Part shown: in pieces, positions 9,611-43,371 of the stretch
Position numbering within the stretch: the stretch's first letter is position 1
Layout of the letters: the number at the start of each line of letters is the position of its first letter
DNA from: Actinomycetota bacterium
Lineage (GTDB): Bacteria; Actinomycetota; CADDZG01; WHSQ01
DNA: 44,880 bases
Assembly: GCA_030447315.1 (NCBI GenBank)
Contig: JAUJPD010000008.1
Location: forward strand, 81,932-126,811
Direction of reading: 5' to 3'
Translations under genes and position numbers: made by a program
The notes under the pieces: model-generated
Database searches by the model: none
What the model was told of the DNA's origin: nothing
The model's input: only the letters and a program-made list of their open reading frames with translations

Positions 9611-10396
9611 CTAGCCCGTCGCCAAGAGGGGCTCTGTCGCCAGGACCTTGTCGACCAGGTCCGCGATCGCCCTGACCGACGGCGCGGACGGGGCGTGATC
9701 GATGGGAGCCGCTCCGGCCCGTTCGGCCTCGGCGAGCATCGGGTCGAAGGGCACCTGCGCGAACAGATCCAGGCCGTTGCTCTCGCAGAAACCCTCGATC
9801 GCAGCGGCGTCGTTCTCGTCGCGCACCTTGTTGGCAACCACTGTCACGCGAGGGATCCCGAGCTGCTTGCCCATGACGCAGTAACGGCGGGCGGTCTCGA
9901 GCGACTTGAAGTAAGGCTCTGCGATCACCAGCATCACGTCGACCGCCTCGGTAGTGGCCCGGCTGAGGTGCTCCGGCGATGCCTCGTTGTCAACCACGAC
10001 GACGCGCTCGGCGTCGGGAGCTTCGTGCAGAAGGCCACGAACCGTGGCGTGAGAGGAGCACATTCAGCCGGTGCCCGCCCCGGTCGGCGATCCCAACAGC
10101 AGCAGACGCACGCGATCGGGACAATCGATGCCGAACTTGGCGTCGACCTCCTCTACCGGCCGCGACAACGAGACGACCACCTCCCCGTTGACCCTCTTGT
10201 GGTCCATGAGTCCGTGCGGGAGCGGAACGATCGACTCGAACGTCTCCCGGGTGAGCCCCAGGGTCAGAGCCAGGTTGGGATTGGGGTCAGCGTCGATGGC
10301 AAGGACGGGATGGCCGGCGCGTCCGACGAGCCGGGCGAAGGTTCCCGACACGGTGGTCTTACCCGATCCGCCCTTCCCGGAGATGGCTACTTTCAC
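9611..10396 (-). CDS. CooC-type nickel-chaperone ATPase A with in-frame TGA (predicted selenocysteine, UxC)
   Basis: 262 codons from the GTG at 10396 to the TAG at 9611. The N-terminus is the deviant Walker A of MinD/CooC ATPases (AISGKGGSGKTT, residues 4-15), followed by LAIDADPNPNLALTLGL. Codon 111 is TGA (10064-10066), and the same frame continues MCSSHATVRGLL, VVVDNEASPEHLSRAT, ANKVRDENDAAAIEGF and FDPMLAEAERAGAAPIDH, all ordinary CooC features. In CooC the residues here are CxC, the dimer-interface Ni/Zn site. The TGA replaces the first Cys and Cys113 remains. A hairpin follows (10034-10048). An ATG lies right after the TGA, so a split gene is the alternative. I favour selenocysteine because two paralogues show the same substitution. 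Confidence 0.82.
10034..10048 (-). promoter_or_regulatory. Putative bacterial SECIS hairpin for CooC A
   Basis: On the coding strand GCCACGGTTCGTGGC forms a perfect 6-base-pair stem with a GTT loop (or 5 pairs with a GGTTC loop). It begins 16 nt after the in-frame TGA, and the first loop G is about 21-22 nt from it. Bacterial SECIS elements are short stem-loops just inside the coding region with a G at the start of the apical loop, and this fits. The hairpin also encodes the conserved ATVRG, so part of the symmetry could be coding coincidence. Confidence 0.6.
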
Positions 10397-11949: not shown

Positions 11950-13026
11950 TCAGCAGATCCGAGGCAGCGGATCTCCGATCAACATGTCCATGATCCGGGT
12001 GCCCCCGAAGGCGGTCTTCACTAAGACCATCCCCTGCGGTTCGTCCGCGACCTCTCCAATGACAGCCGCGTGCTCTCCCAGAGGCAGCTCCTGTAGCGCC
12101 GCGAGTGCCCCGTCGGCGACGGCGGGATCCACGATCGCCAACAACTTGCCCTCGTTGGCCACCGTCATCACGTCGATGCCGAGGATCTCGCTGGCCCCTT
12201 CCACCGCCGGGCTGACCGGGACCGCTTCCTCTTGCAGCACGATGCCGACGTCCGCGTCCCGGGCGATCTCGTTGAGCACCGTCGCGACGCCACCCCTGGT
12301 CGGGTCCCGCATCACGCGCAAGCCGGCCCCCGCGGCACCCAGCAGCGCATCCACCAGAGGCCACAGGGCGGCGGTGTCCGAGCGGATGTCAGCGTCCAGC
12401 TCGAGCTCGCCTCGGGCAAGCATGATCGCGGTGCCGTGGTCGCCAACGGTCCCCGAGCACAGGATCCGGTCACCGGGGCGGATCTGCGTCACGCCGAGCT
12501 CCGCGCGCTGGTCCCTGACGCCGATGCCGCTGGTCACGATGTACATACCGTCGGCCTTCGTCCTCTCCACCACCTTGGTGTCGCCGGCTACGACCGTCAC
12601 ACCGGCCGCGGCCGCTGCCGTGGCCATCGCCTGCACCTCCGCCCGCAACACATCTCCATCGAGGCCCTCTTCCAGGACGAAGGCCGCGGTCAGAGCAAGG
12701 GGCCGGGCGCCGATCATCGCAAGGTCGTTGACGGTCCCGTTGACCGCGAGCTCTCCTATGGAGCCGCCGGGAAACACCAGTGGCTTGACCACGAAGCCGT
12801 CGGTCGTGAACGCAAGCCTCGCTCCGTCGACATCCAGGGCCGCGGCATCGGCAAGCTCCGCCAGTTGAGGGTTGGCGAAGGCGGGCTCGAAAAGCCCGCT
12901 CACGAGCGTGTGAGTGGCCTTGCCTCCGGCTCCGTGAGCCATCGTGATGCGCTCGTCACGCCAGCGCGGCCGGAGCTTCCGCTGACGCTCGATACGCGCC
13001 AGAACCTCTTGCTCGAGGCCCGCCAC
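11950..13026 (-). CDS. hypE: HypE, carbamoyl-dehydrating hydrogenase maturation protein
   Basis: 358 residues, intact. It belongs to the AIR synthase/PurM superfamily, with the ITMAHGAGGKATHTLVSGLF opening and the TTDGFVVKPLVFPGGSIGEL segment. It ends in PRIC, whose C-terminal Cys358 receives the carbamoyl group from HypF and is dehydrated to a thiocyanate. The cyano ligand is then passed to iron on HypC/HypD. It sits in the order hypC, hypC-like, hypD, hypE on the minus strand; HypD ends one base before it starts. It should not be confused with SelD of the same superfamily: the PRIC end decides. Confidence 0.97.
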   Translation of the reverse strand: MAGLEQEVLARIERQRKLRPRWRDERITMAHGAGGKATHTLVSGLFEPAFANPQLAELADAAALDVDGARLAFTTDGFVVKPLVFPGGSIGELAVNGTVNDLAMIGARPLALTAAFVLEEGLDGDVLRAEVQAMATAAAAAGVTVVAGDTKVVERTKADGMYIVTSGIGVRDQRAELGVTQIRPGDRILCSGTVGDHGTAIMLARGELELDADIRSDTAALWPLVDALLGAAGAGLRVMRDPTRGGVATVLNEIARDADVGIVLQEEAVPVSPAVEGASEILGIDVMTVANEGKLLAIVDPAVADGALAALQELPLGEHAAVIGEVADEPQGMVLVKTAFGGTRIMDMLIGDPLPRIC

Positions 13027-14148
13027 CTACGCTCCGGCGCGCTCTTTGGAGCGAGCGAAGCGTCCGAAGTTGTAATAGGCGGCGCAGGCCCCCTCGGAAG
13101 ACACCATGCAGGTCCCGATCGGCGTCTCGGGGGTGCACGCGGTCCCGAACACCTTGCACTCCCACGGCTTGATCACACCTTTTAGGACCTCTCCGCACTG
13201 ACAAGCCTTGGGGTCCGCCACGCGGACGCCCGGCATCTCGAAGCGCAGCTCGGCATCCCAGTCCGCATAGGCATCCGAGAGCCGAAGAGCGCTCTGAGAG
13301 ATGAACCCCAGCCCGCGCCATTCGAAGTAGGGCCGCAGCTCGAACACCTCGGCCAGCACCTCGAGCGCCTTGAGGTTGCCTTCCCACGGCACCACCCGCG
13401 AGTACTGGTTCTCGACCTCGGACCGCCCCTCGGCTAGCTGCTTCATGATCATGAAGATCGACTGCAAGAGATCCAGCGGTTCGAACCCAGCGGTGACCAC
13501 CGGTTGTCCGTGATCCTTCGGGATGAACTCGTAGGGCCGGCAGCCGACGACGGTCGAGACATGTCCGGGACCGATGAATCCGTCGAGGCGCAGATCCGGC
13601 GACTCGAGCAAAGCGCGCAGCGGCGGGACGATCGTCACGTGGTTGCAGATGACCGAGAAGTTCTTGATCCTTTCCGCCTTGGCCCGCATCAAGGTCAGCG
13701 CCGTCGACGGCGCGGTCGTCTCGAAGCCGATCGCAAAGAAGACCACCTCGCGGTCGGGGTTGTTGCGAGCGATCTTCAGAGCATCGAGAGGCGAGTAGAC
13801 GAACCTGACGTCGGCCCCCTGTGCCTTCGCATCGAGGAGGCTGCCGTCGCCGCCCGGGACGCGCATCATGTCTCCGAAGCACGTGAAGATCACGCCCGGG
13901 CGCTTCGCCACGGCGATCCCGTCGTCGACGCGGCCCATCGGTATGACGCAGACGGGGCAACCCGGGCCGTGGACCAGCTCGACGGTGTCGGGCAGATGGT
14001 CCTCGATCCCGTGCTTGTAGATCGTGTGCGTGTGGCCCCCGCACACCTCCATGATCTTGTAGTGGCGGCCGGGCTCGGCGAGAGCCGCTATCTGGGCGGC
14101 GAGCCCGCGCGCCAGGTCGGCGTTGCGGAACTCGTCGACGAACCTCAT
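13027..14148 (-). CDS. hypD: HypD, Fe(CN)2CO assembly scaffold
   Basis: 373 residues, intact. Conserved cysteines are Cys36 in MEVCGGHTHTIYKHG and Cys64/Cys67 in VHGPGCPVCVIPMGR. The CFGDMMRVPGGDGSL motif follows, and the C-terminal [4Fe-4S] region is ACQCGEVLKGVIKPWECKVF with later CTPETPIGTCMVSSEGAC. HypD with HypC binds the iron atom and builds its CO and cyanide ligands. The start overlaps the stop of the second HypC-like gene (ATGA). No internal TGA is present, although the protein is Cys-rich. Confidence 0.97.
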   Translation of the reverse strand: MRFVDEFRNADLARGLAAQIAALAEPGRHYKIMEVCGGHTHTIYKHGIEDHLPDTVELVHGPGCPVCVIPMGRVDDGIAVAKRPGVIFTCFGDMMRVPGGDGSLLDAKAQGADVRFVYSPLDALKIARNNPDREVVFFAIGFETTAPSTALTLMRAKAERIKNFSVICNHVTIVPPLRALLESPDLRLDGFIGPGHVSTVVGCRPYEFIPKDHGQPVVTAGFEPLDLLQSIFMIMKQLAEGRSEVENQYSRVVPWEGNLKALEVLAEVFELRPYFEWRGLGFISQSALRLSDAYADWDAELRFEMPGVRVADPKACQCGEVLKGVIKPWECKVFGTACTPETPIGTCMVSSEGACAAYYNFGRFARSKERAGA

Positions 14149-14402
14149 GCGCTCACATCCAGTCGCGCGATCGCTACCCCGCCGTGGATCAAGAGGCGCT
14201 GCCCGGCTTCCACCGGAGCCACCAGCTCGATGCCGACGGTTCCGCGCTGGCCGTGGTCGTCCTGGCAGATCGCATCGGGGTCACCAGCTTCGATCACTGT
14301 CACGGGCACGGCCACGTCGCCGCAGGTGAGACACCCATCGATGACCGCGCAGACGGCGCCGTACGACTGAGGGTCCACCATCGGAAGCCGAGGACCGGTC
14401 AT
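14145..14402 (-). CDS. HypC-like protein 2 (DGCLTCGD variant)
   Basis: 85 residues from the ATG at 14402, overlapping the HypC stop by ATGA and itself overlapping the HypD start. It has the HypC-family barrel end (GTVGIELVAPVEAGQRLLIH GGVAIARL). It lacks the N-terminal MC of HypC and instead has an internal DGCLTCGDVAVPV after residue 22. Such second HypC-type proteins occur in actinobacterial hydrogenase clusters. It may act as a chaperone for one of the two large subunits. The N-terminal Cys that HypC uses to bind iron is missing, so its chemistry must differ. Confidence 0.8.
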   Translation of the reverse strand: MTGPRLPMVDPQSYGAVCAVIDGCLTCGDVAVPVTVIEAGDPDAICQDDHGQRGTVGIELVAPVEAGQRLLIHGGVAIARLDVSA

Positions 14403-14671
14403 GTGATGTCGGTGGTCTTCAGTTGCTCGAGCTCGTCCTCGTATTCCTCGCCGAGGCCCTGAAGGAAGTCCATCGTGGAACGGGCCTCGTTCTCGTCGAT
14501 CTTCGACATGGCGAAACCGACATGGATCAACACCCAGTCCCCGGTCTCCACACCTTCCGGCGCGATCAGACCGAACTGCACGTCGCGCCGTACGCCGCCG
14601 ACCTCGACCTTGGCGATGTTGAGCTGTGGGTCGACGATCTCGACGATTTGGCCCGGAATCCCAAGGCACAT
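14399..14671 (-). CDS. hypC: HypC/HupF chaperone
   Basis: 90 residues. The start is the ATG of MCLGIPGQIVEIVD, the invariant HypC beginning; Cys2 binds iron in the HypC-HypD complex. Nine extra in-frame residues upstream are not used. The barrel core is VGGVRRDVQFGLIAPEGVET followed by GDWVLIHVGFAMSKIDENEA. HypC carries the Fe(CN)2CO unit from HypD to the hydrogenase large subunit. A GAAGGGG ribosome site precedes the ATG. It heads the hypC, hypC-like, hypD, hypE, SIS run. Confidence 0.95.
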   Translation of the reverse strand: MCLGIPGQIVEIVDPQLNIAKVEVGGVRRDVQFGLIAPEGVETGDWVLIHVGFAMSKIDENEARSTMDFLQGLGEEYEDELEQLKTTDIT

Positions 14672-14733
14672 AGCGAACCCCTTCTCTCGAAGGTGCAACT
14701 ATATGTCGGCAACACCCATAGGAGGAGACGCGC

Positions 14734-15335: not shown

Positions 15336-15584
15336 ATGACGCTTTGGTGGATCGGCAACATCGTCTTTCTTGCCGTGATCATCCCCGTGGTGATCATGCT
15401 CCTGAACCGGGTGCTTCGGCCCGCCGTCGAGATCAAGAAGTACTCGGACGACGTCCTCGAGCACGGCGTGCTGCTGATCGCATCTCTAGACGCCACCGAG
15501 GAGTTGCTGAAGACACGCGATCTCGTGAAGCAGGTAGGTGCAGGCGTCGGTCGCTACGGCGCGGCACTCGACCGGATCCTGTAG
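15336..15584 (+). CDS. Small single-span membrane protein next to hydrogenase maturation genes
   Basis: 82 residues. One N-terminal membrane helix (IGNIVFLAVIIPVVIMLLNR) is followed by a charged helical tail (PAVEIKKYSDDVLEHGVLLI, then EELLKTRDLVKQVG). The family is not recognised. It is the first of three small plus-strand genes ending with the DUF1059 protein. A comparable set of small one-helix proteins stands at 38265-38970 beside hydrogenase B. A role as a membrane anchor or adaptor for hydrogenase electron transfer is possible but unproven. Confidence 0.7.
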   Translation: MTLWWIGNIVFLAVIIPVVIMLLNRVLRPAVEIKKYSDDVLEHGVLLIASLDATEELLKTRDLVKQVGAGVGRYGAALDRIL

Positions 15585-15592
15585 GAGGAGAC

Positions 15593-15846
15593 ATGCAACC
15601 AGTAGCTATCGTGACGCTCATCGGTGTCGCTGCAACCGTGTTGGTGCTTGCGGCCTATCTCCTCACCGTCGCCTGGATCCTCTACAAGGTGAGCTTCACA
15701 CTCGGTACCGTCGTCGCCGGCCTGCGGGCGATCGCGAATCAAACGGAACCGTTGCAGCCCGTGATCGACGAGATAAACGCCGACCTGGCCGGTGTGCAGG
15801 GGGCTCTAGAGGGCCTCTCGCGAAGAAGACCTCCAAAGCCGGTTGA
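15593..15846 (+). CDS. Small single-span membrane protein, second of set (3' end frame uncertain)
   Basis: It starts at an ATG with a strong GTAGGAGGAG site 2-11 bases upstream. A membrane helix (GVAATVLVLAAYLLTVAWIL) is followed by an amphipathic tail (TLGTVVAGLRAIANQTEPLQ, then VIDEINADLAGVQGALEGL). After EGL the printed frame runs on into the DUF1059 gene (to 15913). A one-base shift gives AKKTSKAG and a stop at 15846, which leaves the next ribosome site free and is my choice. The tail resembles that of the 38779 protein (LRSIADTLAKITFGVRAVEQ). Confidence 0.6.
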
Positions 15847-15892
15847 CGGCCCTGACGACTCCAACCGCAGCCCCAGACAGAGGAAGGAGCAC

Positions 15893-16069
15893 ATGACCAA
15901 AGAGTTCCGCTGAGCAGACGCAGGAGCTTCCTGTCGCGGTCACTTCACCGGCGAGACCGACGAGGAGCTTCTTCAGAAGGTGTCCGAACACCTAAAGAAG
16001 AAGCACAAGGTCGAGCATGTGACGAAGACACTCGCTAACTTCGCTTTGAAGGTAGCGAAAGAGCGATAG
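15893..16069 (+). CDS. DUF1059 small protein with in-frame TGA (predicted selenocysteine)
   Basis: The frame ATG (15893) to TAG (16069) gives 58 residues reading MTKEFR-TGA-ADAGASCRGH, then FTGETDEELLQKVSEHLKKK and a Lys-rich end. DUF1059 proteins start K-x-F-x-C-x-D-x-G-x-x-C and continue with G-x-T-E-E-E-L. The TGA (15911-15913) sits precisely at the first conserved Cys, and the second (codon 14) is TGT. A strong AGGAAGGAG ribosome site supports the start. The same frame on both sides of the TGA argues against a frameshift. A hairpin follows (15919-15936), although its loop is closer to the TGA than is usual for a SECIS. Confidence 0.75.
15919..15936 (+). promoter_or_regulatory. Hairpin after the DUF1059 TGA, possible SECIS
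   Basis: CAGGA (15921-15925) pairs with TCCTG (15929-15933) around a GCT loop. Two further CG pairs (15919-15920 with 15935-15936) lie beyond a bulged T. The loop begins with G, but only 13 nt after the TGA. A second stable hairpin (15934-15954, loop CACTTC) is at a more usual distance but lacks a loop G. Either could act, and the evidence is weaker than for the CooC genes. Confidence 0.35.
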
Positions 16070-17003: not shown

Positions 17004-17760
17004 TCAAGCCGGGACGGCCATCTCCTTCTCGACCGCGTCCAAGAGCCGGTCCACCGCCTTCACCGCTTCCGAGCCGGCGTCCGCATCGATCACGGCCTGT
17101 CCCCGGCGGTCAGCATTGCGCGCGACCTCGTCGTAAGGAACGATCGCCAGCAAGGGAAGCCCCGTCCCGAGCGAAGCTCTCGACGATCTCTCGATCCTGA
17201 TCGTCTTCGACCTTGCTGCCCACCCCGTAGATGCGTGGGATGCCGAGGTCGGTGGCGAGCTCGAAGCGTCCGGCGCCGGTCTCCAGCGCTTTCCTGTAAG
17301 GCTCGAGCACGACGAGGAGAACGTCTACGTGGCGAAGCGTTCCGCCGGAGCGGGATAGATGCTCGAGCCCCGCCTCCATGTCGGCGATCGTTAGTTGGTG
17401 GTCCTCCGAGAGGAGGTCACCCAACATGCCACGCACGGTGGCATGAGAGCCGCAAGCTCAGCCACCGGCGGCTTGGTCCACCCTTGCGCCGATCACCAAG
17501 GTGACGCCGTCGGGGGCCTCGATGCCGTACCCGGTGATCAGCCGGTCGGCCGACATCGGTTCTCGACCCTGTATCGACTTCGGCAATGCCTCGGCCGCAT
17601 CCAGAACGTCGAAACTGAGACCGAGACTGGCGCCGAGGTTCGGATTCGAGTCGCAGTCGATCGCGAGTGTTCGATACCCGCGTCGCGCCGCGAGACGAGC
17701 GAGCGTGGCAGAGATGGTCGTCTTTCCGGTGCCACCCTTGCCCGATATAGCTACCTTCAT
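17004..17760 (-). CDS. CooC-type nickel-chaperone ATPase B with in-frame TGA (predicted selenocysteine, UxC)
   Basis: The ATG at 17760 overlaps the biotin-ligase-like stop (ATGA). Residues 1-15 are MKVAISGKGGTGKTT, and LAIDCDSNPNLGASLGL follows. Codon 101 is TGA (17458-17460). The same frame continues ACGSHATVRGMLGDLL and ADMEAGLEHLSRSG, so the site reads U-A-C where CooC has C-x-C. There is no start codon just after the TGA, which makes a split gene unlikely. A separate one-base indel near 17165-17175 shifts the C-terminus, which resumes LLAIVPYDEVARNADRRGQA and ends VEKEMAVPA at the TGA at 17004. A hairpin in the same position as in CooC A lies at 17428-17442. Confidence 0.8.
17428..17442 (-). 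promoter_or_regulatory. Putative bacterial SECIS hairpin for CooC B
   Basis: On the coding strand GCCACCGTGCGTGGC has a 5-base-pair stem (GCCAC/GTGGC) and a CGTGC loop. It begins 16 nt after the TGA, the same distance as in CooC A, with the loop G about 22 nt away. It covers the same ATVRG codons as in CooC A, so coding conservation contributes, yet synonymous changes keep the stem (GTT to GTG falls in the loop). Confidence 0.55.
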
Positions 17761-19122
17761 GGCTCCGAAGCTAACAGGTACTCGAGCCTCTTCAAGGAGT
17801 CCACGTTGACGCCTATCGTTCGAGAGCCGGCCCCGATCAACAAGGTGCCGAAGGCATCCACCCCCGTCGCGTGCCCACCACCTCGCGCGGAAGAAGAGAT
17901 GCCCGCACCGAGCGGCCGAGGGTCTCGCAACGACGTCGATATCCGTCCAAGAGCTCGGATGCCCCCAGGTCGTAGATCTCATCGAAGGTCTCCAAGAAGA
18001 CCTGCAAGAAGGCGGCTTGTCGACGGGAGAACCCGTCTCGATGGCCACGCTGGTAGCGTCGCTCCTTCAGCTCCGCGGAAATCGATCTTGGATGACGTTG
18101 AGGTTGATCCGGAAGGTGGCGATCGCACTCTCGATCCGGCCGGGAGCGAGTTGATTGATGACTTTGAGGCCGCCGATCTTGCGTCCGCCGACGTGGAGGT
18201 CGTCGGGCCACTTGATCTTCACATCGTTCACCCCCAGCGACTCCAGCGCGCGAGCTCCTGCCAAAGAGGCCAAGACCCACAACAGGTCCTCGCCTTCGGG
18301 GGGACCGCGGACGCAGCACGATCGAGAGATAGAGACCGTCGCCGGGGAAACCGATCCAGGGAGGTCCCTTGCGCTGGCGGGCGACAGCTCCTGGCTGGCC
18401 ACGACGACGGCTCCCTCGGGCGCCTCCTCGGCCCGGGCCCACCCGAGAGCCAGCGCCTCGGTCGTCAAGGCCACCGGATAGGTCCGCACGGGGTGTCCCG
18501 CCACGGTGCTCTCCGCGCCTGCCCCCGGCGCCGGTGCCCCTTCGATCACTCGGGCGACGGCCCGCCGGAGCCCGGGGCGGGTCGCTCCGGCACCAAGCAG
18601 TCGTTCGACCCGCCACACCTCGTCCTCGAGAGACAGCACGATCGACCCTGCCGGGATCGCGGTTTGGAGCGCGTCGAGCTCCGGGCCGAGCTGCACCAGC
18701 AGATTCACTCGAACCTGCATGGGAGCCTCGGGGCTGGCTTTCGACTCGAAGGCGACGCGGGTTAGGTCGATGCCGACCAGGTCGCGCTGCAGTCCGGCCA
18801 GCAGGTCACCGAGGAAATCATCGGTCTCTTCGGTCGTCGCAACACCACTTCGCAGACGAGACGCCAGATCGAAGTCCATGCCGCGCTGTATGCCGAGATT
18901 GATGATGTAAGCCTGCGCCGATCCACTGAACATGTCCCACACGCGCGCGCATCGCCGACGCCAAGCGCAGCGAGGAATGTCTCGGCCGCGGCCAGAGCTC
19001 CTTCGCTCGCTACCTCCTCCGGCTCGAGCCACGACTCGGGCTCGGGAGGTATCTCTCCGAACGGTCCTTCCAGGCCTACGTCGTCACCCCCGTTGCATCC
19101 CGCCAGCGATCGATCTAGTCAT
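17757..19122 (-). CDS. SnoaL-like domain fused to a biotin/lipoate ligase-like domain (frameshifted)
   Basis: The ATG at 19122 overlaps the TPR stop. The N-terminal part (AAETFLAALGVGDARA, then MFSGSAQAYIINLGIQRGMD, and later VLSLEDEVWRVERLL) resembles a SnoaL/DUF4440 cone domain. The second half is BirA-like: VKIKWPDDLHVGGRKIGG corresponds to the KWPNDL motif (Asn to Asp), with AFLQVFLETFDEIYDLG and a C-terminal barrel end VGTATGVDAFGTLLIGAGSR. The glycine-rich GRGRRG loop of active biotin ligases is not seen. Frame changes lie near 19080-19090, 18945, 18300-18370, 18040-18090 and 17850-17880. It ends by overlapping CooC B. A role tied to hydrogenase maturation is inferred from neighbours only. 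Confidence 0.6.
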
Positions 19123-20784
19123 CAGACAGGCCGGGGGCAACCCCCGGATTGTCCCGAAGCACCGATTCGAGAGAGGTCTCCTCTGGCGCCGGCTCGTTGT
19201 TGGCCTGCGGACCGTGCTCGTTGAAGCGGTTGTAGTGCTCCCATACATCGATCTCGGTCAACTCCTTCTGCAATGCGCTGAGAACCGATCGCATCTTGTC
19301 GTACGAAGGCTCCGTCTCGCCGGTCAACCAGTCGCGCGCAGCTGGGCCTCGTTGCAATGGCAATCGTGGCGCACCAGGACCGAGCGCAACTCGTCGGGAT
19401 CGCTCCATCCGCTCTCGACGGCGATCCGTGACAACCAGTCCGAGAAGGGCATCAGCCCCCGGCCGTTCGTAACCCATCTCGTACAGCGTGTCGCGGACGC
19501 GGACACGCTGTGGTGAGAGCAGCTCGTCCTGGATCGTGCGATCGAGGATCGCGACAGCCCTTCCTTGAAGCCTCGTCGAGCGCTTCGTGAACCTGCATCC
19601 TCGCCGTCAGCCCGGCTACGAACTGCTCGTGAGGCAGCTCCATGAGCACCTGCAACCAAGCCGCCGAGATCCGGACCGCTTCGGGATCGTCCAGTCGCAG
19701 GACGGCGTCGTCGAACTCGCCAAGGGCTTGGGTTCGGCGCGGCTCGGGCAGCGTCACGTAGTCGCGCAGGCGCTCCCGAAGCAAGGCCAAGAGGCGCTCG
19801 CCGCTTTCTTCCGAAGCCAGACGTGCGAAGTGCTCCGGACGAGTTCCGGGCTCCCCCGCTTCCTCCAGCGCGGCTTCGGCCAACTGCAGGTTCTGGTACG
19901 CACGCTCCCACTGCGGCCGATGGAGGCGAGAGTCCAGCACGCGCAGGGCGTCCTCGAACGACACCACAGCCCGCCGCAACGACGACACGTCACCCAACTG
20001 CGCGAACGAAAGGCCGAGGTTGTTCTTCGCCAGAGCGAACTGGAACGGCCATCGGTGACGGGTGAACACCCGCAGCGATTCCGTACATGCCTCGACCGCC
20101 TTGTGCGGCTCGCCCACCGCGGTGAGGGCCACGCCAAGGGAATGGTTCACCAGCGCCCACTGATAGGGATGCTCCTGCGGATCCGCGATCGCAAGTGCTT
20201 CTTCGTAGACGCCGATGGCCTCGCACGCGCGCTCCGGTTGCTCGGTGTTCGCCAACGTCTGGGCGAGGTTGTGCAGCACCGAGATCCGCTGGCGAACGAA
20301 CTCGCGACCGAGAGAGAGCCTGCAACGCAGTGTGGAACCTTTCGATCGCCTCATCAACGCGGCCCAGGTCCGCATAGGTAAGGCCGAGATTGTTGAGGGC
20401 CGCGCCGTGCTCGCCCGGGCTCGCCTCCATGGGGATCAGGCGAACCGCCACCTCGAACGCCGCGGCGGCCTCTTGTCTTTGGCCTAGCTCTCGGAGGGTG
20501 GTACCGAGGGCGTTCTGCGCCCGTCCGTGCTCTCCGGGCCGTAGGCGGGGGTCGAAAGCGGCAACGGCTTTGTTCAGCGATGCAACGGCCCGGCTCAGAT
20601 TGATCATGCGGTCACCGGTGGGCAGCTCCGCCCAAGCCAGTCCGAGGTTGTACCGCACCACGCCACGCTCGAAGATGCGAGTGTTCGGCACGCGCTTCAG
20701 CTGCTCCTCGAGGCGCTTGATCGTCGCCTCGGCGGCGTCGGTCTGTTCTTCCGCTACGCCGGTGGCAATCGACTCATCCGTCAT
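19115..20784 (-). CDS. Tetratricopeptide repeat protein (frameshifted)
   Basis: Several frames join into a protein of roughly 555 residues starting MTDESIATGVAEEQ (ATG at 20784). TPR units are clear: ALNNLGLTYADLGRVDEAIE, VLHNLAQTLANTEQPERACE, VNHSLGVALTAVGEPHKAVE, KNNLGLSFAQLGDVSSLRRA. A non-repeat C-terminus follows (EMGYERPGADAL, then TLSALQKELTE-type helices and an acidic end GLSDD). Frame changes lie near 20330, 19570 and 19440-19470. TPR proteins scaffold protein complexes. This one is directly followed by the ligase-like fusion and CooC B. It is preceded by a set of repeated start-site sequences (20773-20906). Confidence 0.7.
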
Positions 20785-20906
20785 GCGGTGCATCCTCCGC
20801 CACTATGCCCATCCGTTGAGCCTCATCCATGACGTTTCATCCTCCGCCCGAGCGCGTCTATGCCCATCCGTTGACCCTCATCCATGATGCGTTGCATCCT
20901 CCACCG
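20773..20906 (-). repeat. Tandem repeat of a ribosome-site/start-codon unit
   Basis: Two long units (20803-20848 and 20858-20906) are nearly identical, and a third, truncated unit (20773-20801) covers the TPR start. Read on the minus strand each has GGAGGATG, then a short spacer and an ATG followed by GATGAG or ACGGATGAG. The longer units can encode the starts MDEGQRMGI and MDEAQRMGI. The array joins the end of the protease gene to the start of the TPR gene. It looks like a local duplication of a translation initiation region. Confidence 0.75.
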
Positions 20907-21338
20907 CGCCCGGCCACCGGCGGTGACAGCTCGCTCTCCAAGCGGTCCATCACCAGGGGCTGACAGCCCACCAGCACCGTCTTCGCGGGAAGGATCTTCA
21001 ATGCGTGGGCGAGCATCAACGCTTTCGAGGGCTTCGTGTAATGCATGTCGGCGAGATAGTCGAACCGCTCCATGTTGGTCATGCCCTCGGAGCTGTCGAT
21101 CTCCGGCTCGATCACCATGACGGTTCCGGGGGGGCGACCCCGGTCGACCGCGTCCACCATGATCAAGGCGTCGTAGCCGCCGAGGATCTCCTGCACCAGA
21201 TGGATCCCCCGGTTCCGGTCTCCACGACCTTCACCCCGGCCGGCAGATCTGACTGCTGCAGCCGGTGAGCGACCACCACTCCTGGAAACCATCGTCGCCC
21301 TGGAGCAGATTGCCCACTCCGGCGACCAGGATCCTCAC
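20858..21338 (-). CDS. [NiFe]-hydrogenase maturation protease A (HycI/HyaD-type, frameshifted)
   Basis: The GTG at 21338 starts VRILVAGVGNLLQGDDGF, the conserved beginning of the family (GxGNxLxxDDGFG), whose Asp binds nickel. After frame changes near 21290 and 21220 the protein continues IHLVQEILGGYDALIMVDAV (the second metal-binding Asp), SEGMTNMERFDYLADMHYTK and TVLVGCQPLVMDRLESELSP. These proteases remove the large-subunit C-terminal peptide after nickel insertion. The Met-rich helix before the end resembles proteases of group 1 hydrogenases. Downstream is the repeat array and the TPR gene. Confidence 0.75.
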
Positions 21339-21371
21339 CGAGCGATTCTAGATGTGCTGTTGGACGCGGGC

Positions 21372-22895
21372 TTAGCTCGTGGCGCGAGGTGGATCGATCG
21401 TCGACACGACCGGGAGGCGAAGCGTCCCGCGCCGATACACGTAGGCGAGGGAGGCCGCGAGACAAGCGACATAGACGATGAGGTTGAGGCCGAGATGCAA
21501 CAACACGAGGTCGATGAAGGCTCCTGCGATCCCGTCATTCACCTTGGCGCCCGAAGCCATGTGCTGAACCACCTTCGTCGTGTGTTCTACGACGTGATAG
21601 CTCTGCACCGCTGCTGCCAGCACAAGGAAGCGGTCACCCGTGCCACCCGAGCCTCGCGGTTGCCAACCCGGGACCTGGCAGCGACTATCACCAGGACGCT
21701 GAGCAGAACCGAGACGTTGTAGATCAGATGCACCCACTCTGCCTCGACGCCGGGTCCGACCAGCCCGCCTCTGCTGGGGACCCCGTCCACCCGCACCCGG
21801 AAGACCTGAAGACCGTGCTCGATCATGTGGAACGTCTGCACGACCAGAGACGCGAGGCCCACCGGGACCAACCACGCGGGCGGGGTCGCGCCCCGGCGCC
21901 GGCCACCCCGCGACAGTGACGCTGCGAGGGGCCGGAGCAGGACGAACAACAGGAAGAAGAGCGCGCCGGCCACGACCAGAGTGAGCGAAATGGGCACGAG
22001 GGCTCGCCACCCGGCTCCTATCTCCAAAGGCGACGACGCCTGGATGCGGCCATGCAACGACTCGTAGGTCGCACCGGCCTCGCCTTCGAGGACGTCGCCG
22101 GTCGAAGACGCAACCGCGTGATAGGTCACGACGAGACCCCACCCTCCATGGGACCCGCCCCGTCTGCGGCGCGATCGAGGTCACCTCGTTGTTCTCGAGT
22201 CGGCACCGGGACATGTCACCGCAGTAGAGACCGGTGCCCCAGGCGTTGCGGACGACGTTGCCCGTGACGATCCCGTCACTCATCTCGGTCACCACGATCC
22301 CTCTCATCGTGGTTCCCGTCACCTCGTTGTCGGTCAGGACCACCTCGGATACGTGAGACACGATCCCCTCCTGGCCCCCCACTACACGAGAGTCCTCAAC
22401 GTGCGAATCCGGGCGTCCATCCGAGTTACGTATCTCTATGCCCTGCGCCATAGCGTGGCGCAGCCGCTCACGGTCGTGCCGACGATCTCCGCGGCCCCGT
22501 CGATGACCTCTATGCCGTGAAGGTTGGACCTCCCACGGTCACGTCCCGGACCGTCACTCCTTCGACCTCGCGGATGCGGATCCCGGTGGCACCGCCCGAG
22601 ACCGCGATGCCTTCGAGCTGCACGTCGTCGGCGGCGACCGACACCGCGGCGGGGGCGCCGGGCGGGGCGCTTATCTCGGCTCCGGCTCCGGACACGGCTC
22701 CGAGGCTGACACGCTTGTCCACCAGCACCGGACCTTGATGGGTGCCGGAGCAAGCACGATCAACGCGCCCGCAGGCGCCCGGTCTATCGCTGCCTGTAGA
22801 TCCTGGGTCGTCTCGACCTCTATCCGAGGAGCACGATCGGCGAGCATCGAACCGCCACCCACAGCGACCGCGCAGGCCGCCGCGGCGATGGCCAT
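21372..22895 (-). CDS. Secreted parallel beta-helix protein with C-terminal membrane region (frameshifted)
   Basis: It begins with a signal-like MAIAAAACAVAVGGGSMLA at 22895. Right-handed beta-helix repeats (NosD-type) follow: GIAVSGGATGIRIREVEGVT, GIEIRNSDGRPDSHVEDSRV, VVLTDNEVTGTTMRGIVVTE, GTGLYCGDMSRCRLENNEV. The second half is membrane-embedded (LVPISLTLVVAGALFFLLFV, LVVQTFHMIEHGLQVF, then YHVVEHTTKVVQHM and IVYVACLAASLAYVY). Two HxxEH-like His pairs are notable. Frame changes lie near 22730, 22460-22510, 22130 and 21620. The function is unknown. It directly follows the MalG-type gene. Confidence 0.6.
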
Positions 22896-28540: not shown

Positions 28541-28557
28541 AGGAGTACCTTGAGTAG

Positions 28558-29226: not shown

Positions 29227-29290
29227 GGCATATACTGCCCCCGAGTTGCGGACCGGCTCGATCATCTGATCCTCTAGCCAAGGAGTCCTC

Positions 29291-32161: not shown

Positions 32162-32188
32162 CTCAGCGCTTCACAGCTAGGAGGCGGC

Positions 32189-32600: not shown

Positions 32601-32602
32601 GG

Positions 32603-32872: not shown

Positions 32873-32955
32873 CGGTCACCTCCGGTATGTCATCGCTGGA
32901 TCATCCGGAGAACCCCCAACATTTAGCCACACATCCGGGCTCTAGAATCCACGGG

Positions 32956-33189: not shown

Positions 33190-33560
33190 GCGCGCAGCGA
33201 ACGATCGAGCAGCACTTCTGGCCAAGCCGGCGCGGATCGAGCACCTGCTCGGCCACCCGAACCGCGTAGCCCTTGATCGTCCACCACGCCAGGTAGGCCT
33301 CGAGTTGTTGGAACGTCTCGCCGTCTATCTCGTCGGAACCGTGACAGCCGGCGCTCGACCTCACCGGCGATGATCCGATCGAGAGCGCTGACCAACAGTG
33401 GCTCGGGATACAGCAACAGTCCATCGGCTTCTTCGGTCCGGATGCGATCCCCGATCTCGGTAGACAGCTGGTCGAGATCTTCGGGGAGGCCGGGCGGAGG
33501 CTCCCAGCAGGGCGTCGGTATCCGACTCCTCAACGCGGCGCAGGCAGTAGCCGACGGTTA
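33155..33560 (-). CDS. Hypothetical protein downstream of the NifU-like gene (frameshifted)
   Basis: Two frames join: LDQLSTEIGDRIRTEEADGL, LLYPEPLLVSALDRIIAGEV, ERRLSRFRRDEIDGETFQQL, EAYLAWWTIKGYAVRVAEQV, ending IDLVPRPRRL at 33155. The frame change is near 33345. It is probably about 130 residues, all helical, and I do not recognise the family. The start is not clear. It is part of the hydrogenase B minus-strand train and overlaps the convergent Nfu_N gene slightly. Confidence 0.45.
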
Positions 33561-34292
33561 ACGCAGTTCGCCCAGATCCCGAACTCGGGTGCAGGTTGCT
33601 GTTCCTGTTGCTCTGCGACCATGGCGGTCAGGCATGCCTGCGCACGAGCAGCGTCAATGGGTGCGCCTGCGCCAGGGCGTGCGCGAAAGACGATGTCGTC
33701 TAAAGAAAGGGTCACTGTCGCGCAGAGATTGATCTGGTGCACCTTCGGTGGAGCTTGCTCGGGGCGGCTTCCTCGACGCCTTCGACCCCGATACCGCGCC
33801 GGGCCAGCGCCTTGGAGGATCTTCTCCACGCCCTGCGTCAGGGTGAGAGTGCCGGAAGGACAGCCATCACACGAGCCCATCAGGCGCAGTCGAACGATGC
33901 CCTGGGACACGCCGAGGACCTCCATCTCGCCACCGTGCGAGTGCAGGTAGGGCCGGATCTCGTCGAGGGCTTCCTCCAGCGACTCGGCAAGATCGTCGGG
34001 CTCGTCTTCCTCCGCGAGGTAGGTCTCGAACAGGCGAGCGGCGACGGGGGTCCTGCGCCAGGGAATCGACGGCATCTCCCGGAAGCATCGATGCGATACG
34101 AACCACCGCCTCGCGGTGGAAACCATCGACCCAATCCAGCAACTCGAAGGCCAGCCCCTGGTCTCCGACTCGGGTGTCGCTTGGAGGTGCTCGACGATCT
34201 CGCCCATGCGCACGAAAGTCTTCGTCCAGCTCCATCTCCTCGGACTGGACCTCGGTCTCTGGGGGCGGACGAACCGAACGAGTCTGCGTCAC
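33530..34292 (-). CDS. NifU-like Fe-S scaffold protein (frameshifted)
   Basis: The GTG at 34292 opens VTQTRSVRPPPETEVQSEEM and overlaps the protease stop. After shifts near 34205, 34165 and 34050 it reads MGEIVEHLQA, LAFELLDWVDGFHREAVVRI and ARLFETYLAEEDEPDDLAES. The NifU C-terminal domain follows: EIRPYLHSHGGEMEVLGVSQ and MGSCDGCPSGTLTLTQGVEK, with the CxxC that holds a labile Fe-S cluster. A further about 80 residues to 33530 have no clear match, and the true stop may lie nearer 33720. It likely helps assemble clusters for the hydrogenase small subunits. Confidence 0.7.
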
Positions 34293-34841: not shown

Positions 34842-34863
34842 CTGAGACAGAGCGGCGCGTGCC

Positions 34864-36749
34864 CTATTCCAACGTGCACGAACACGAGTTCACCTCACGC
34901 ACGATGACACCGCGGGCCGGTGTCGAGGTGGGTCGTGCACGGCATGCAGGGGTCGAACGACCGATCGTCCTGAGAACGTCGATGCCCTTGAGCTCGTCGT
35001 CCTTCGTGGTCTCTAGAAGCGGCGTCCCGATGATCGCTTCCTCGTAGGCCCCGGGATTGCCGAACGGGTCACGAGGAGAAGCGTTCCAGGTCGACGGCGT
35101 GTTGATCTGGTAGTTCACGATCCGGCCCTTGTCCATCGTCATGTGATGGCTGAGGTAACCGCGGCCCGCCTCCGGTGAAGCCGCACGACGCGATCTCACC
35201 CTGGGGGATCGAGAACTTCGACCACGCCTTCGTCTCGCCCTTGCGCCACAGGTCGAACGCCTGGAGAAGCATGTTCATGGTGATCGCCGCGGTGAAGGCG
35301 ACGCCGTAGGCGCGGCCCCGGTTGCGCTCGAAGGCATTGACCTGTAGAACCTTCCACTCGAGCTCCATCTCGGGCAGCTCGAACTTGGGCATCAACATCT
35401 TGAGCCCGTCTCCGGTGGCCTGGATGAAATCGTTCTGCTGCATCTTCTGAGCCATCGCGGTGGTCCCATGCGCCCGTAGACGCCGGTCTCCATCGTCTCG
35501 CGGTCCCAGCGGGGGGCGCAGTCCCACGAGTACTTCTCTTTGAAGTTACGACCCTCGGGCCGGGGAATCGTGGACTTGTTCCATGCGTGGTACGGAGACA
35601 GCGGGTATCCGGCGGGGTCCGTCTTGAACTTCTGTCCGCTCTCTCCGTCGGTCCCTCCTCGTAGAACGAGTGGGAGACGAACTCCTCGATGCCGCAGTTG
35701 ATCTCGTGGAGGTTGGTCGTCACCAACTCGCCGTTGCGGATGACGCCGGGCATCGACCAGCGCTGGTCCCCCCACTCGGCCATGTTCTCGTACTTCGCGT
35801 CGAAGGACCAGGGATCGTCCCAGATGCCGGTCTGGATCAGGTTGTTGGGTCGAGCACCAACCAGCGCATAATCCGGGTTGTGCTCGAGGAAGAAGTCCAG
35901 CACGTCGTCCCACCACAGCGCGATGCGCTTGGAGTAGTCGAAGAACTTGATCAGGCGCGTGTAGTACTCGTTGAAGCTTGTCGTCGACAGCGTGGTCATC
36001 ACGCCACCCGGCACCAGCGTCGACGGGTGCGGGTACTTGCCGAACATGTAGTTGCACATCTCGCACGTCCGAGGCGGGTGAACTCGATCGCCTCGAGGTA
36101 GATGGCCCCGGTCAGGGGGTCCATCGCATCCATGATGTCTTTGATGGTCTTGTAGCCGTGTACGTGAGCATGAGGCGCAGAGGTGTTCTCGGCCTTGCGG
36201 ACGATCTCGGGGTTCGTGACCGAAACGAGCGCGGTCGAGTAGTCGGGTCCGGCCAACAGCCCGAGGTGGATCGGGTGGTCGTAGAGCATCTCGGCTCCTG
36301 CACCGAGGTTGCGAACGGTCACGCCCATCGGAGGCGTCTGCACCCCGAAGGCCATGTCCAGTGCCTGGGAGGAGACCGAGGAGTGAACACCGCCGCAGAC
36401 ACCGCAGGCCCGTGAGGAGATGTCGATCGCGTCTCTCGGGTCCCGACCCTGCAGGATGATCTCGTAACCCCGGAACAACATCGCCATCGAGTGAGCCTCG
36501 ACCGCCGCGGCGCTCGACGTCGAGCCCGATGTGAACGGCAAGAGCGCCCGCAACGCGCGTGATCGGGTCGATCATCCAGTCGCGCACCTTGCCCTCGGTG
36601 GCGATCGCTCCCCCGCCGATGGGACGCTGGATAGTCTTGGTGTAGGCCTTCGTGGCTGCGCCCGTCAGCGAGTACGGGTCCGCGATGCCCTCTCTGAGTC
36701 GCGCCTTCCCGTTCTCGTCGAACTCGAGCGGGAGGTTCTTAAAACACAT
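34864..36749 (-). CDS. [NiFe]-hydrogenase large subunit B (frameshifted)
   Basis: The ATG at 36749 gives MCFKNLPLEFDENGKARLRE, then DWMIDPITRVAG. Corrected frames add GYEIILQGRDPRDAIDISSR, the N-terminal nickel motif ACGVCGGVHSSVSSQALDMA, CNYMFGKYPHPSTLVPGGV, TTSFNEYYTRLIKFFDYSKR and VNYQINTPSTWNASPRDPFG, and near the end RSFDPCMPCTTHLDTG with the two last nickel Cys and His. After the His a tail VIVREVNSCSCTLE remains to be cleaved. Both nickel Cys pairs are TGC/TGT; there is no TGA here. Frame changes lie near 36530-36610, 36070, 35650, 35460, 35190 and two within 34915-34965. Confidence 0.83.
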
Positions 36750-36795
36750 CCGGGTTCACCTTTCCTCTTCTTTCATGCGACGGGTGAGCAGCTGC

Positions 36796-39581: not shown

Positions 39582-40346
39582 ATGCGGATCGCGGTGGTGG
39601 GCAAGGGCGGCGCCGGCAAGTCGGTCGTCGCCGGCACCATGGCGCGCCTGTTGGCCCGCGGCGGTGACAAGGTCCTGGCCCTCGACTCGGACCCGATCCC
39701 CGGCCTGGCCATCAGCCTCGGGCTCGGCCCCCTCGACACTCCCATGCTGCTGGACGCGGTCGAGAAAGACGACAACGGACGGTGGCGTTTGAAGAAGGGC
39801 ATCGGGGCCGCTCGAGCGGTCCAGCGTTACTCGCTGGTGGGACCCGACGGCGTCCGGCTGCTTCAGTTCGGAAAGACCACCGCATCGGGGCTGAAGGACT
39901 TCATGGGCTCGGTGAACGGCTTCTACCAAGTGGTCCATCGGTTGGCGAGAGATGACTCCCTGTCGGGTTGGACGATCGTCGGAGACCTTCCCGCGGGCCC
40001 CCGTCAGACCGCCTTCGACTGGGTCCCCTACGCCGACAAGCTCGTACTGGTGGTGGAGCCAACGTGGCAGTCGATCCTCACCGCGCGCCGGATCGCTCGC
40101 ATCTCCCGACAACGCTCCGGGGTCGAAGTGGTCGCTTTCGGCAACAAGCTTCGCGAGGACGGAGACACCGATCTCATCGAAGAGCGGCTGGGCGAGCGTC
40201 TTGGAGGTTCCCTGCCCTTCGACCCGCTGGTGGCCGAGGCAGATGCCCACGGGAAGGCGCTCATCGATCACGCGCCCGATTCCCCGGCGGTGCATGCGAT
40301 CGAGCATCTCATCGACGCAATCTCCCGGCGTAAGGTGAGCGCATGA
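39582..40346 (+). CDS. CooC-type ATPase C, lacking the CxC motif
   Basis: 254 residues, intact. The deviant Walker A is VVGKGGAGKSVVAGTMARLL, and LALDSDPIPGLAISLGLGPL follows. The central region reads DFMGSVNGFYQVVHRLARDD where relatives have the metal motif; no CxC or TGA is present. Later features are ADKLVLVVEPTWQSILTARR and GNKLREDGDTDLIEERLGER, and it ends RRKVSA. It is coupled (ATGA) to CooC D, and the two may form a heterodimer in which only D carries the metal ligands. That is inference. Confidence 0.85.
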   Translation: MRIAVVGKGGAGKSVVAGTMARLLARGGDKVLALDSDPIPGLAISLGLGPLDTPMLLDAVEKDDNGRWRLKKGIGAARAVQRYSLVGPDGVRLLQFGKTTASGLKDFMGSVNGFYQVVHRLARDDSLSGWTIVGDLPAGPRQTAFDWVPYADKLVLVVEPTWQSILTARRIARISRQRSGVEVVAFGNKLREDGDTDLIEERLGERLGGSLPFDPLVAEADAHGKALIDHAPDSPAVHAIEHLIDAISRRKVSA

Positions 40347-41086
40347 AGATCGCGGTTGCGGGCAAGGGCGGTGTCGGCAAGACCACCATCTCGGGCACCC
40401 TGGCTCGCCATCTTGCCCGCACGGGCATGCCCGTGATCGCTCTGGACTGCGACACGAACCCGATGCTCGGGGTCTCGCTGGGGGTCGGGCCGGAGGAAAC
40501 CGATCGTCTCGGAACCGTCCGCCAAGGTCTAGACACCGGCGAGGTAGAGCACCAACCAACCACTCAAGGCATCGTGGAGACGTTCGGAACCGATGCTCCC
40601 GACGGCGTGCGCCTGGTGGTGGTGTCGCGCATTGACAACATCGACCCCGGCTGACCCTGATGTGGGGTTTCGCCCGAGCAGTTGCTCGGTGAGCTAGAGC
40701 AAGAAGGGGCAGCGGTCATCTGCGACCTGGAGGCCGGGGTGGGATCGCTGTTGCGCATGAGCGACGGGCACGTCGACGTCACGCTGGCGATCGTCGAGCC
40801 GACGGTGAAGTCGATCGAAGCCGCTACTCGCGCCGCGGCCATCGCCTCGGGACACGGAAAGGTGATCGTCGTCGCGAACCGGGTCAGAGACGACTCCGAC
40901 ACCGAGTTGATCCGTTCGGCCTTCCCCGACCACGACATGCACGTGATCCCCTATGACGCCGCGATCAGGCGGGCCGACCGGGAGGGAACCGCTCCGATCG
41001 ACTTCGGCGACAGCAGCGCCGGTCTGGCCGCGATCGCACAGCTCGCCCACAGGATCTCTCGATCGGACCCGGTGGAGGCTGCCTAG
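40343..41086 (+). CDS. CooC-type ATPase D with two in-frame TGA codons (predicted U-P-U-C)
   Basis: 248 codons in one uninterrupted frame apart from TGA at codons 104 (40652-40654) and 106 (40658-40660). The N-terminus is MKIAVAGKGGVGKTTISGTL, with LALDCDTNPMLGVSLGVGPE-type sequence (here IALDCDTNPM). The critical region is NIDPG-TGA-P-TGA-CGVSPEQLLGEL, where cysteine homologues would be expected to read CPCC. ICDLEAGVGSLLRMSDG, VIVVANRVRDDSDTELI and IPYDAAIRRADREGTAPIDF follow. No base needs to be inserted or deleted. A perfect hairpin follows at 40674-40689. It ends overlapping the HypF stop by 4 bases. Confidence 0.82.
40674..40689 (+). promoter_or_regulatory. Putative bacterial SECIS hairpin for CooC D
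   Basis: CCGAGCAGTTGCTCGG forms a perfect 6-base-pair stem with an AGTT loop (or 7 pairs with a GT loop). It begins 14 nt after the second TGA, and the loop G is 21 nt away, essentially the same distance as in CooC A. The encoded residues here (PEQLLG) differ from those under the other two hairpins, so the structure is not explained by protein similarity. Confidence 0.65.
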
Positions 41087-43371
41087 ATCAGCTTCGCGCT
41101 CGCCACGACGGCTTGTCCGAGACTGACCCCGCCGTCGTTGCACGGGACCTGGCGGTGGAGCAACACCTCGAAGCCGCGGTCGCGCAATGCGCTGCGGACG
41201 CGTTCCAGGAGGAAGACGTTCTGCCAGGTCCCCCCCGACAGCGCCACGACCTCGATACCCGTAGCAGCCCGCGCGCCGAGGGCTGTTTCCACCAGGCCCG
41301 CCGCGAGGCCGTTGTGGAACCCCGCGGCCGCCTCGGGGACCGAACGGCCGGCGGCGACATCCTCGGCCAGAGCTCTTATCAAAGAGACCCCATCGAGACG
41401 GCCGTCGGAGAACGGGAACGGATACACGAGGCCGCTCGAGGGATCGGCAACGTTCTCTAACTCGGCGGCGGCCTGTCCCTCGTAACTGGAGCGGGTCCGG
41501 AGTCCACACACCGCGGCCGCGGCGTCGAAGAGCCGCCCCGCGCTGGTTGCCTCGGGTGAGTTCAACCCCCGGCGAGCCATCTTCAGGATGGGCGCCCACT
41601 TGCTCCCTGTTTCTCTCACGACCTCTAGCGCCAGCTGGTACGCGCCGTCGCCGAAGCCGGCCTCCAGATAGACCGCCGCCATGCGCCACGGCTCTTTGAT
41701 TGCGGCCTCGCCGCCCGGCAGCGACACGGGGGCCAGATGTGCAAAGCGTTCGTAGCCGGTCAGGTCGGCAACGAGGATCTCGCACCCCCACAGGGTTCCG
41801 TCGTCTCCCATGCCCGTCCCATCGAGGGCGAGGCCGATGACGCGATCGGACCGGTTGTTGTCCGCGAGGCAGGAGGCTATGTGCGCATGGTGGTGTTGAA
41901 CCCCGATCTTGGTCGGAGCCTCAGACGACAGCGCCCATCTCGTGGCGAGATAGCCGGGATGCAGGTCGTACGCGACCACATCGACCTCGTCGATGTCGAA
42001 GAGGCGCTTCAGGTGAGCGACGCCGTCGGTGAACGCCGCCATAGCTGCGTAGTTCTGCAGATCGCCGATGTGGTGGGAAACGACGGCCAGGTCTTCGACC
42101 CCCAAACAGAACGTGTGCTTCAGCTCGGGTCCTGTCGCGAGAACCGGACGAGAGAAAGTCGTCGGAACGCTGATCGGTTGGGGCACGTAGCCACGCGAGC
42201 GGCGGATCAGATACTCCTGCGAGCCCACCGCTCTGACCACCGAGTCATCACAGCGGGTCCGGATCGGGCGGTCGTGGATCAAGAACGCATCCGCCACCTG
42301 TTGCAACCGCTCGTAGGCGTCGTCGTCCTGGAACGCCACCGGCTCATCCACAAGGTTGCCCGAGGTCATGACCAGCGGACGCCGCACCGCGGCCAGCAGC
42401 AAGTGATGCAGAGGCGTGTACGGCAGCATCAATCCCAGGTATGGGTTGCCCGGCGCTACCTCTTCGGCCACCGCGGTTGAAGGCCGTCGGCGCGACAGCA
42501 CGATGGGGGCGCGTGGAGACGAAAGCAGCGCCTCCTCCTGGCTGGTGATCACGGCCAGCTCGCGTGCTGCCGCCAGGTCGGCGACCATCAGGGCCAGCGG
42601 CTTCGCCTCCCGGTGCTTGCGCGCCCGCAGACGTTTCACCGCGTTGGCGTTCGTGGCGTCGCAGGCCAGGTGGAAGCCTCCCAACCCTTTGATGGCGACG
42701 ATCGCACCTTGGATCAAGAGCTCGGCCGCTCCTTCGAGGGCCTCGGTCGCGACGGCCTCTTCTTCGATGGCGCCGCCCTCGGCAGTCAGCAGCCGCAACC
42801 TCGGCCCGCACTCGGGACACGCGATCGGCTGCGCATGGAAGCGCCTGCTCCCTTGGTCCGAGTATTCAGCCGCGCAGGCGCGACACATCTCGAACGATGC
42901 CATCGTCGTGTTGACACGGTCGTAGGGCGAAGCGGCAACGATCGTGAAACGAGGTCCGCAGTCGGTGCAGTTCGTAAAGGCATAGCGATGTCGTCTGTCA
43001 CGTACGTCTTCGACCTCGGCGGCACACGCCCGGCAAGTGGCCAGATCCGGCGGTATCGAAACCCGAACCCGTCCTTCGCTTCGGCTCGAACGGATCTCGA
43101 ACGTCGTCGCGTCGGCGATGTCTATGTCTTCCGTCTGAAAACTGGTGATCGACGCCAGGGGCGGAGGGTCTGCGCGCAGCGCAGCCTCGAAACGAGCGAC
43201 CGCGGCTTCATCACCCTCGGCCTCGATCGCCACGCCTCGAGGGTCGTTGACGACGTAGCCGGTCACGCCCATCTCGATCGCGCGCCCGTAGACGAAGGGA
43301 CGGAACCCGACACCTTGCACCACACCTTGGATATGGAAGCGCCTGCGGATGCGTCGATGCATGACAGTCAT
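41083..43371 (-). CDS. hypF: HypF carbamoyltransferase
   Basis: 762 residues, intact. Domains in order: acylphosphatase (IQGVVQGVGFRPFVYGRA, residues about 10-95); two zinc fingers (CRACAAEVEDV to NCTDCG, and CRACAAEYSDQ to ACPECG); a YrdC-like domain (RLRARKHREAKPLALMVADL, APIVLSRR); and the Kae1-like carbamoyl transfer domain (QHHHAHIASCLADN, GLALDGTGMGDDGTLWGCE, VVALSGGTWQNVFLLERV, NDGGVSLGQA). It makes the carbamoyl group for HypE from carbamoyl phosphate and ATP. The usual WGGE motif is WGCE here. It is convergent with CooC D and the stops overlap. Confidence 0.97.
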   Translation of the reverse strand: MTVMHRRIRRRFHIQGVVQGVGFRPFVYGRAIEMGVTGYVVNDPRGVAIEAEGDEAAVARFEAALRADPPPLASITSFQTEDIDIADATTFEIRSSRSEGRVRVSIPPDLATCRACAAEVEDVRDRRHRYAFTNCTDCGPRFTIVAASPYDRVNTTMASFEMCRACAAEYSDQGSRRFHAQPIACPECGPRLRLLTAEGGAIEEEAVATEALEGAAELLIQGAIVAIKGLGGFHLACDATNANAVKRLRARKHREAKPLALMVADLAAARELAVITSQEEALLSSPRAPIVLSRRRPSTAVAEEVAPGNPYLGLMLPYTPLHHLLLAAVRRPLVMTSGNLVDEPVAFQDDDAYERLQQVADAFLIHDRPIRTRCDDSVVRAVGSQEYLIRRSRGYVPQPISVPTTFSRPVLATGPELKHTFCLGVEDLAVVSHHIGDLQNYAAMAAFTDGVAHLKRLFDIDEVDVVAYDLHPGYLATRWALSSEAPTKIGVQHHHAHIASCLADNNRSDRVIGLALDGTGMGDDGTLWGCEILVADLTGYERFAHLAPVSLPGGEAAIKEPWRMAAVYLEAGFGDGAYQLALEVVRETGSKWAPILKMARRGLNSPEATSAGRLFDAAAAVCGLRTRSSYEGQAAAELENVADPSSGLVYPFPFSDGRLDGVSLIRALAEDVAAGRSVPEAAAGFHNGLAAGLVETALGARAATGIEVVALSGGTWQNVFLLERVRSALRDRGFEVLLHRQVPCNDGGVSLGQAVVASAKLI

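Follow-up and report, generated by a model that had tools for sequence, protein, structure and literature searches.

The open reading frame (ORF) at positions 15893..16069 on the forward strand of the analyzed stretch (hereafter the window, 44,880 nt of Actinomycetota DNA) is very probably a conserved selenoprotein gene of the DUF1059 family (PF06348), in which an in-frame UGA is read as selenocysteine (Sec). This reading is based on the exchange of TGA and cysteine codons at one column in six families, on a complete Sec machinery in the same genome, on purifying selection after the TGA, and on the lack of this family in the searched lists of known selenoproteins. Furthermore, the product is proposed as a Sec-containing carrier or assembly factor for a metal (Ni or Zn). 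The statement as a whole, namely a selenoprotein that handles metal together with small membrane proteins and CooC-like ATPases for a high-affinity [NiFe]-hydrogenase, appears somewhat probable to us; its assignment to metal handling and to the hydrogenase is deduced from residue conservation, the topology of the fold, and the order of the genes.

The gene reads ATG ACC AAA GAG TTC CGC TGA GCA GAC GCA GGA GCT TCC TGT ... TAG, with a ribosome-binding site of the AGGAAGGAG type located in front of the ATG. Six codons including the start are followed by the TGA (15911..15913, +), taken as the Sec codon, at residue 7; this is the first column with an invariant Cys, and the second such Cys (C14) is retained. 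The predicted product comprises 58 amino acids including Sec (MTKEFRUADAGASCRGHFTGETDEELLQKVSEHLKKKHKVEHVTKTLANFALKVAKER). With C placed at the TGA, the ORF matched PF06348 with 52.1 bits at a cut-off of 21.1. Together with the alignment of relatives, this match confirms the first-pass annotation, which had recognized a DUF1059 start with TGA in the first Cys column and an intact second Cys. The window gene offers no start codon in the segment from the TGA to the second Cys, so that a restart downstream of the TGA cannot yield the conserved domain.

An earlier search at the class level had revealed TGA-bearing DUF1059 genes in several genomes, with the TGA in one column only and in several distinct subfamilies. 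The search across the phylum (396 genomes) detected 25 loci in 13 genomes with exactly one TGA, and TAA or TAG in none. A further lineage, found by eye outside these 25 loci, contributes the 26th (L066 in genome G125), which results in 26 TGA-bearing loci in 14 genomes from six families of one phylum. In the contig profile search, the single-protein DUF1059 query yielded no relatives; the query built from a closer alignment found them. When the homologues were aligned, as proposed in the first-pass annotation, the TGA fell into the first Cys column in 24 of 24 distinct TGA sequences set against 12 Cys sequences, and relatives carry TGC or TGT at this position. The named public contigs that share the TGA belong to different, independent metagenome-assembled genomes (MAGs) of Actinomycetota, and the conservation of the TGA in the family does not depend on the window copy. 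The DUF1059 protein of an isolate, Amycolatopsis marina, is a Cys form. Plasmid relatives were searched for and none were found.

In ten pairs of TGA-bearing DUF1059 genes, dN/dS after the TGA ranged from 0.03 to 0.20, values that indicate strong purifying selection on the codons 3′ of the TGA. At least seven changes between the Sec and Cys states were counted on the maximum-likelihood tree of 37 DUF1059 sequences and four to seven in bootstraps, the tree being weakly resolved because of the short sequences. In addition, TGA is very rarely the terminator of Sec-form genes: it ends 1 of 24 Sec-form versus 11 of 22 Cys-form genes, which are related sequences and not independent observations.

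The host genome encodes a canonical tRNA-Sec with the anticodon TCA (UCA), as well as SelA (match of 489 bits), SelB (327 bits), and SelD (L097, 377 bits). The SelD gene has an in-frame TGA at the known Sec site GGGUACK and thus serves as an internal positive control for the use of Sec in this host. Normal TGA terminators occur in the window as well (HypE, HypC, NifU, and others), and a genome-wide reassignment of TGA was rejected on the grounds of these genes. In five genomes with TGA-bearing DUF1059 genes (G017, G018, G023, G151, and G392) tRNA-Sec was undetected; SelB is present in three of them (G017, G018, and G023). Because several MAGs are without a detectable tRNA-Sec, a perfect match between this tRNA and the TGA genes is not demonstrable.

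The region where a bacterial SECIS element is expected (15914..15950, +) contains a weak hairpin, GCAGGAGCTTCCTGT. Neither folding nor synonymous-rate tests demonstrated a conserved or selected SECIS element 3′ of the DUF1059 TGA. The folding energy of this region relative to synonymous recodings gave a mean z of about -0.1 to -0.5, close to that of the Cys forms, and the 12 codons that follow the TGA showed no deficit of synonymous differences (39 of 110 vs. 93 of 304). An excess of A at the wobble position of codon +3 after the TGA (12 of 24 vs. 1 of 12, in related sequences) hints at a hairpin and is suggestive only. The Rfam scan of the window gave no matches.

In the window, the DUF1059 gene follows two genes for small membrane proteins. 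TM82 (15336..15584, +), the first gene of this cassette, encodes a protein of 82 amino acids with an N-terminal membrane helix as judged from its sequence and with no Pfam match, and TM106 (15593..15892, +) is the second. The surroundings include genes, all on the reverse strand, for a HypE-like hydrogenase maturation protein (11950..13026; named from its sequence and a conserved neighbor in relatives), HypD (13027..14148), HypC (14399..14698), a BirA-like protein (18067..19032; 19.6 bits, just under the Pfam cut-off of 21), a hydrogenase maturation protease of the HycI/HybD type (20858..21292), a NifU-domain protein (33530..34213), the C-terminal part of a [NiFe]-hydrogenase large subunit (34864..35199; the gene is frameshifted in the assembly), and HypF (41083..43371). 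At 18067-21480 and 28550-37957, frameshifts disrupt the genes for TPR, protease, and hydrogenase proteins, a pattern that suggests indels introduced during assembly.

The window proteins were used to search regions of at most 20 kb surrounding the DUF1059 loci. The cassette TM82-TM106-DUF1059 recurs across relatives on one strand and in fixed order, usually no more than about 1 kb from a gene for a CooC-like ATPase and with NifU, HycI-type protease, hyp, or hydrogenase genes nearby. This context was found in G000, G003, G005, G007, G008, G010, G151 (twice), and G210, and furthermore in G238 (twice), G268, G288, and G392; in G125, the cassette and the neighboring genes lie within about 10 kb in a different order. 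The families f2 and f3 harbor the cassette plus extra solitary copies of Sec-DUF1059 with no hydrogenase or CooC gene in reach, and the neighbors examined around the copies in these families are mostly housekeeping genes. As many of these f2 and f3 copies are without hydrogenase or CooC genes nearby, a role in hydrogenase maturation is not general for the family. Tandem DUF1059 pairs, with a Sec form beside a Cys form after the same two small membrane proteins, were observed at L024/L035 (G021) and L023 (G019). Each of the genomes G019-G023 has three to six paralogues of DUF1059 (loci L155-L171); several of them contain Sec, and they are dispersed among unrelated neighbors.

A published cluster of group 1m hydrogenases comprises CooC, DUF1059, HybD, BirA, TPR, and two single-helix proteins of 82-92 amino acids (PMC9561532). 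The predicted gene content of the window and its relatives matches this accessory set, to which an Fe-S assembly protein also belongs, with the BirA-like protein just under the cut-off. The word selenoprotein is absent from that paper.

Explanations of the TGA other than Sec were weighed against these data. A sequencing or assembly error that made TGA from TGC or TGT in the window MAG would fit the TGC of the closest relative of the window copy (G003) and the several frameshifted window genes, some of them near the DUF1059 ORF. In independent genomes and assemblies, however, at least 25 further loci carry TGA in this column, and errors would not spare TAA, TAG, and other positions, which leaves such an error extremely improbable. 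Just as hard to reconcile with the data is a dead gene, in which the TGA is the true stop of the upstream membrane-protein ORF and the remainder stays untranslated. The TM106 frame (from 15593) is indeed stop-free in the window and runs into DUF1059 up to the TGA at 15913, a read-through that possibly represents a fused, membrane-anchored product or an indel. In contrast, the downstream codons are under purifying selection, an ATG and a ribosome-binding site belong to DUF1059 itself, and in several other genomes TM106 is separated from DUF1059 by a stop or lies in another frame. Some bacteria possess tRNAs for Cys or other residues with a UCA anticodon. An unusual tRNA of this kind, which would insert Cys or another residue at the UGA, is compatible with the Cys found at this position in relatives, but we consider it very unlikely, since the UCA tRNA found among the tRNA-Sec-like matches is the canonical tRNA-Sec, SelA, SelB, and a Sec-type SelD are encoded in the genome, and TGA is otherwise a stop. 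Decoding of the UGA as Sec is therefore the reading we retain.

The first-pass annotation had concluded that recoding is not limited to one family, and this holds true, as the TGA is also found in the CxC motif of CooC-like ATPases in the window and in relatives. Three of the ATPases encoded in the window carry TGA at this site: CooC_A (9611..10396, -) with the TGA at 10064-10066 (U-M-C), CooC_B (17110..17760, -; frameshifted at its 3′ end) with the TGA at 17458-17460 (U-A-C), and a third one (40343..41086, +) with two TGAs at 40652-40654 and 40658-40660 in the motif G-U-P-U-C (U-P-U at the CxC site). A further CooC-like ATPase (39582..40346, +) is without the CxC motif. In relatives, the site reads U-x-C, C-x-C, C-P-U-C, or UPUC. 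Judged from these motifs, CooC appears to be another new selenoprotein family, the second after DUF1059, and one of its members would contain two Sec residues. Sec is found in both DUF1059 and CooC in the window, in DUF1059 with Cys in the nearest CooC in G238 and G151, and in the reverse state in G008 and G010. In the CooC-like proteins of L118, L125, and L128 the motif is G-U-T-G, with Sec as the first residue and the second Cys lost, which suggests a one-ligand variant. In G007 and G008 (L106 and L107) CooC genes with TGA were observed and tRNA-Sec was undetected, and no SelB match over the cut-off was listed for G008; the explanation would be either incomplete MAGs or a tRNA-Sec that has diverged.

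The alignment A1, with C at the TGA, revealed six invariant positions in DUF1059 (C/U7, G11, A12, C14, H33, and H38), among them the set Cys-x6-Cys-x18-His-x4-His, whose first Cys is replaced by Sec. The conservation of this set of Cys or Sec, Cys, and two His suggests a putative metal site. In the structure model (pLDDT 85.5), a strand is followed by a short turn helix that holds Cys7 and, after Cys14, by a second strand; next comes a long helix, which contains H33 and ends just before H38, and then a last helix. The order strand-strand-helix of the model resembles a Cys2His2 finger with a long loop. Among solved structures, Foldseek gave no significant match to the model and the best VIA Z was 3.3, and a PDB sequence search with DUF1059 gave no credible relative.

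In the proposed mechanism, the UGA at 15911 would be decoded as Sec by SelA, SelB, SelD, and tRNA-Sec of the host, giving rise to the 58-residue product with Sec as the first residue of the invariant Cys-x6-Cys-x18-His-x4-His set. Sec7, Cys14, His33, and His38 would then hold a metal, either Ni or, as a structural metal, Zn. The two small membrane proteins encoded upstream and the neighboring CooC-type ATPases with their Sec-bearing CxC motif may act as partners, and together with them DUF1059 would supply or assemble metal for the high-affinity [NiFe]-hydrogenase. In CooC of Carboxydothermus, the dimer interface holds Zn or Ni through the two Cys of the CxC motif; the small protein CooT of the same pathway binds Ni (PMC6006190).

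The main rival to this metal role is a redox role, in which Sec7 and Cys14 of the selenoprotein form a selenenylsulfide/dithiol pair that serves as a small relay for electrons or thiols, perhaps as a subunit protecting the hydrogenase from oxygen. Sec is the redox residue in most characterized selenoproteins (PMC9312934), two soft residues six apart are conserved in DUF1059, and the cassette contains membrane proteins and is located near a hydrogenase. On the other hand, two invariant His complete a ligand set of the Cys2His2 type, the spacing C-x6-C differs from CxxC or UxxC, and the neighboring CooC has its Sec in a CxC motif known to bind Zn or Ni and not in a redox motif (PMC6006190). Taken together, we regard the redox role as rather unlikely, and the binding of a metal remains the preferred reading.

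Neither DUF1059, PF06348, nor CooC is named in a 2026 review of the prokaryotic selenoproteome (PMC13188914), no NCBIfam model (June 2026) matched the window DUF1059, and the family is seldom mentioned in the literature searched. The review and the missing model agree with the first-pass annotation that DUF1059 is no standard selenoprotein. We rate the finding as a known family and a known recoding mechanism in a new combination and in an unusual role. The known prokaryotic selenoproteins likewise show the pair of Cys and TGA at a conserved Cys and a genomic Sec machinery, and for SaoB, SaoC, and UXX-star the use of Sec as a metal ligand is assumed (PMC13188914). Cys-containing DUF1059 proteins are alike in family, size, and the invariant C/G/A/C/H/H residues and, in the hydrogenase case, have the same gene neighbors as in the window, but they carry Cys at the first position instead of the Sec (TGA) of the window protein. 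The CooC/CooT system of CO dehydrogenase (PMC6006190) also combines a small protein of about 6-7 kDa, encoded beside a CooC-type ATPase, with a Cys-based metal site, the CooC CxC motif binding Zn or Ni, and is comparable to the window set in this respect. In contrast, the genes linked to the window system are those of a [NiFe]-hydrogenase, and both partners, DUF1059 and CooC, have Sec in place of Cys; homology between DUF1059 and CooT is not claimed. Finally, C2H2-like zinc fingers have the same order of two strands and a helix with Cys, Cys, His, and His as the DUF1059 model, and the profile of one of them, Sina_ZnF (PF21361), matched these residues weakly (14.9 bits, E 0.037, below the Pfam cut-off of 32). 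Unlike these fingers, the window DUF1059 has Sec as its first ligand, and no structural match was found.

The known selenoproteins would gain a family from a lineage that has been little studied for selenium. The ORF is concealed by a TGA that follows six codons, and many such genes have therefore probably been missed or mis-annotated. For the Sec of DUF1059, metal binding is more likely than classical redox chemistry, and accessory proteins would tie selenium to high-affinity hydrogen oxidation. Tentatively, some Actinomycetota may possess a selenium-dependent Ni (or Zn) relay for hydrogenase maturation, with a Sec ligand in both DUF1059 and the CxC motif of CooC.
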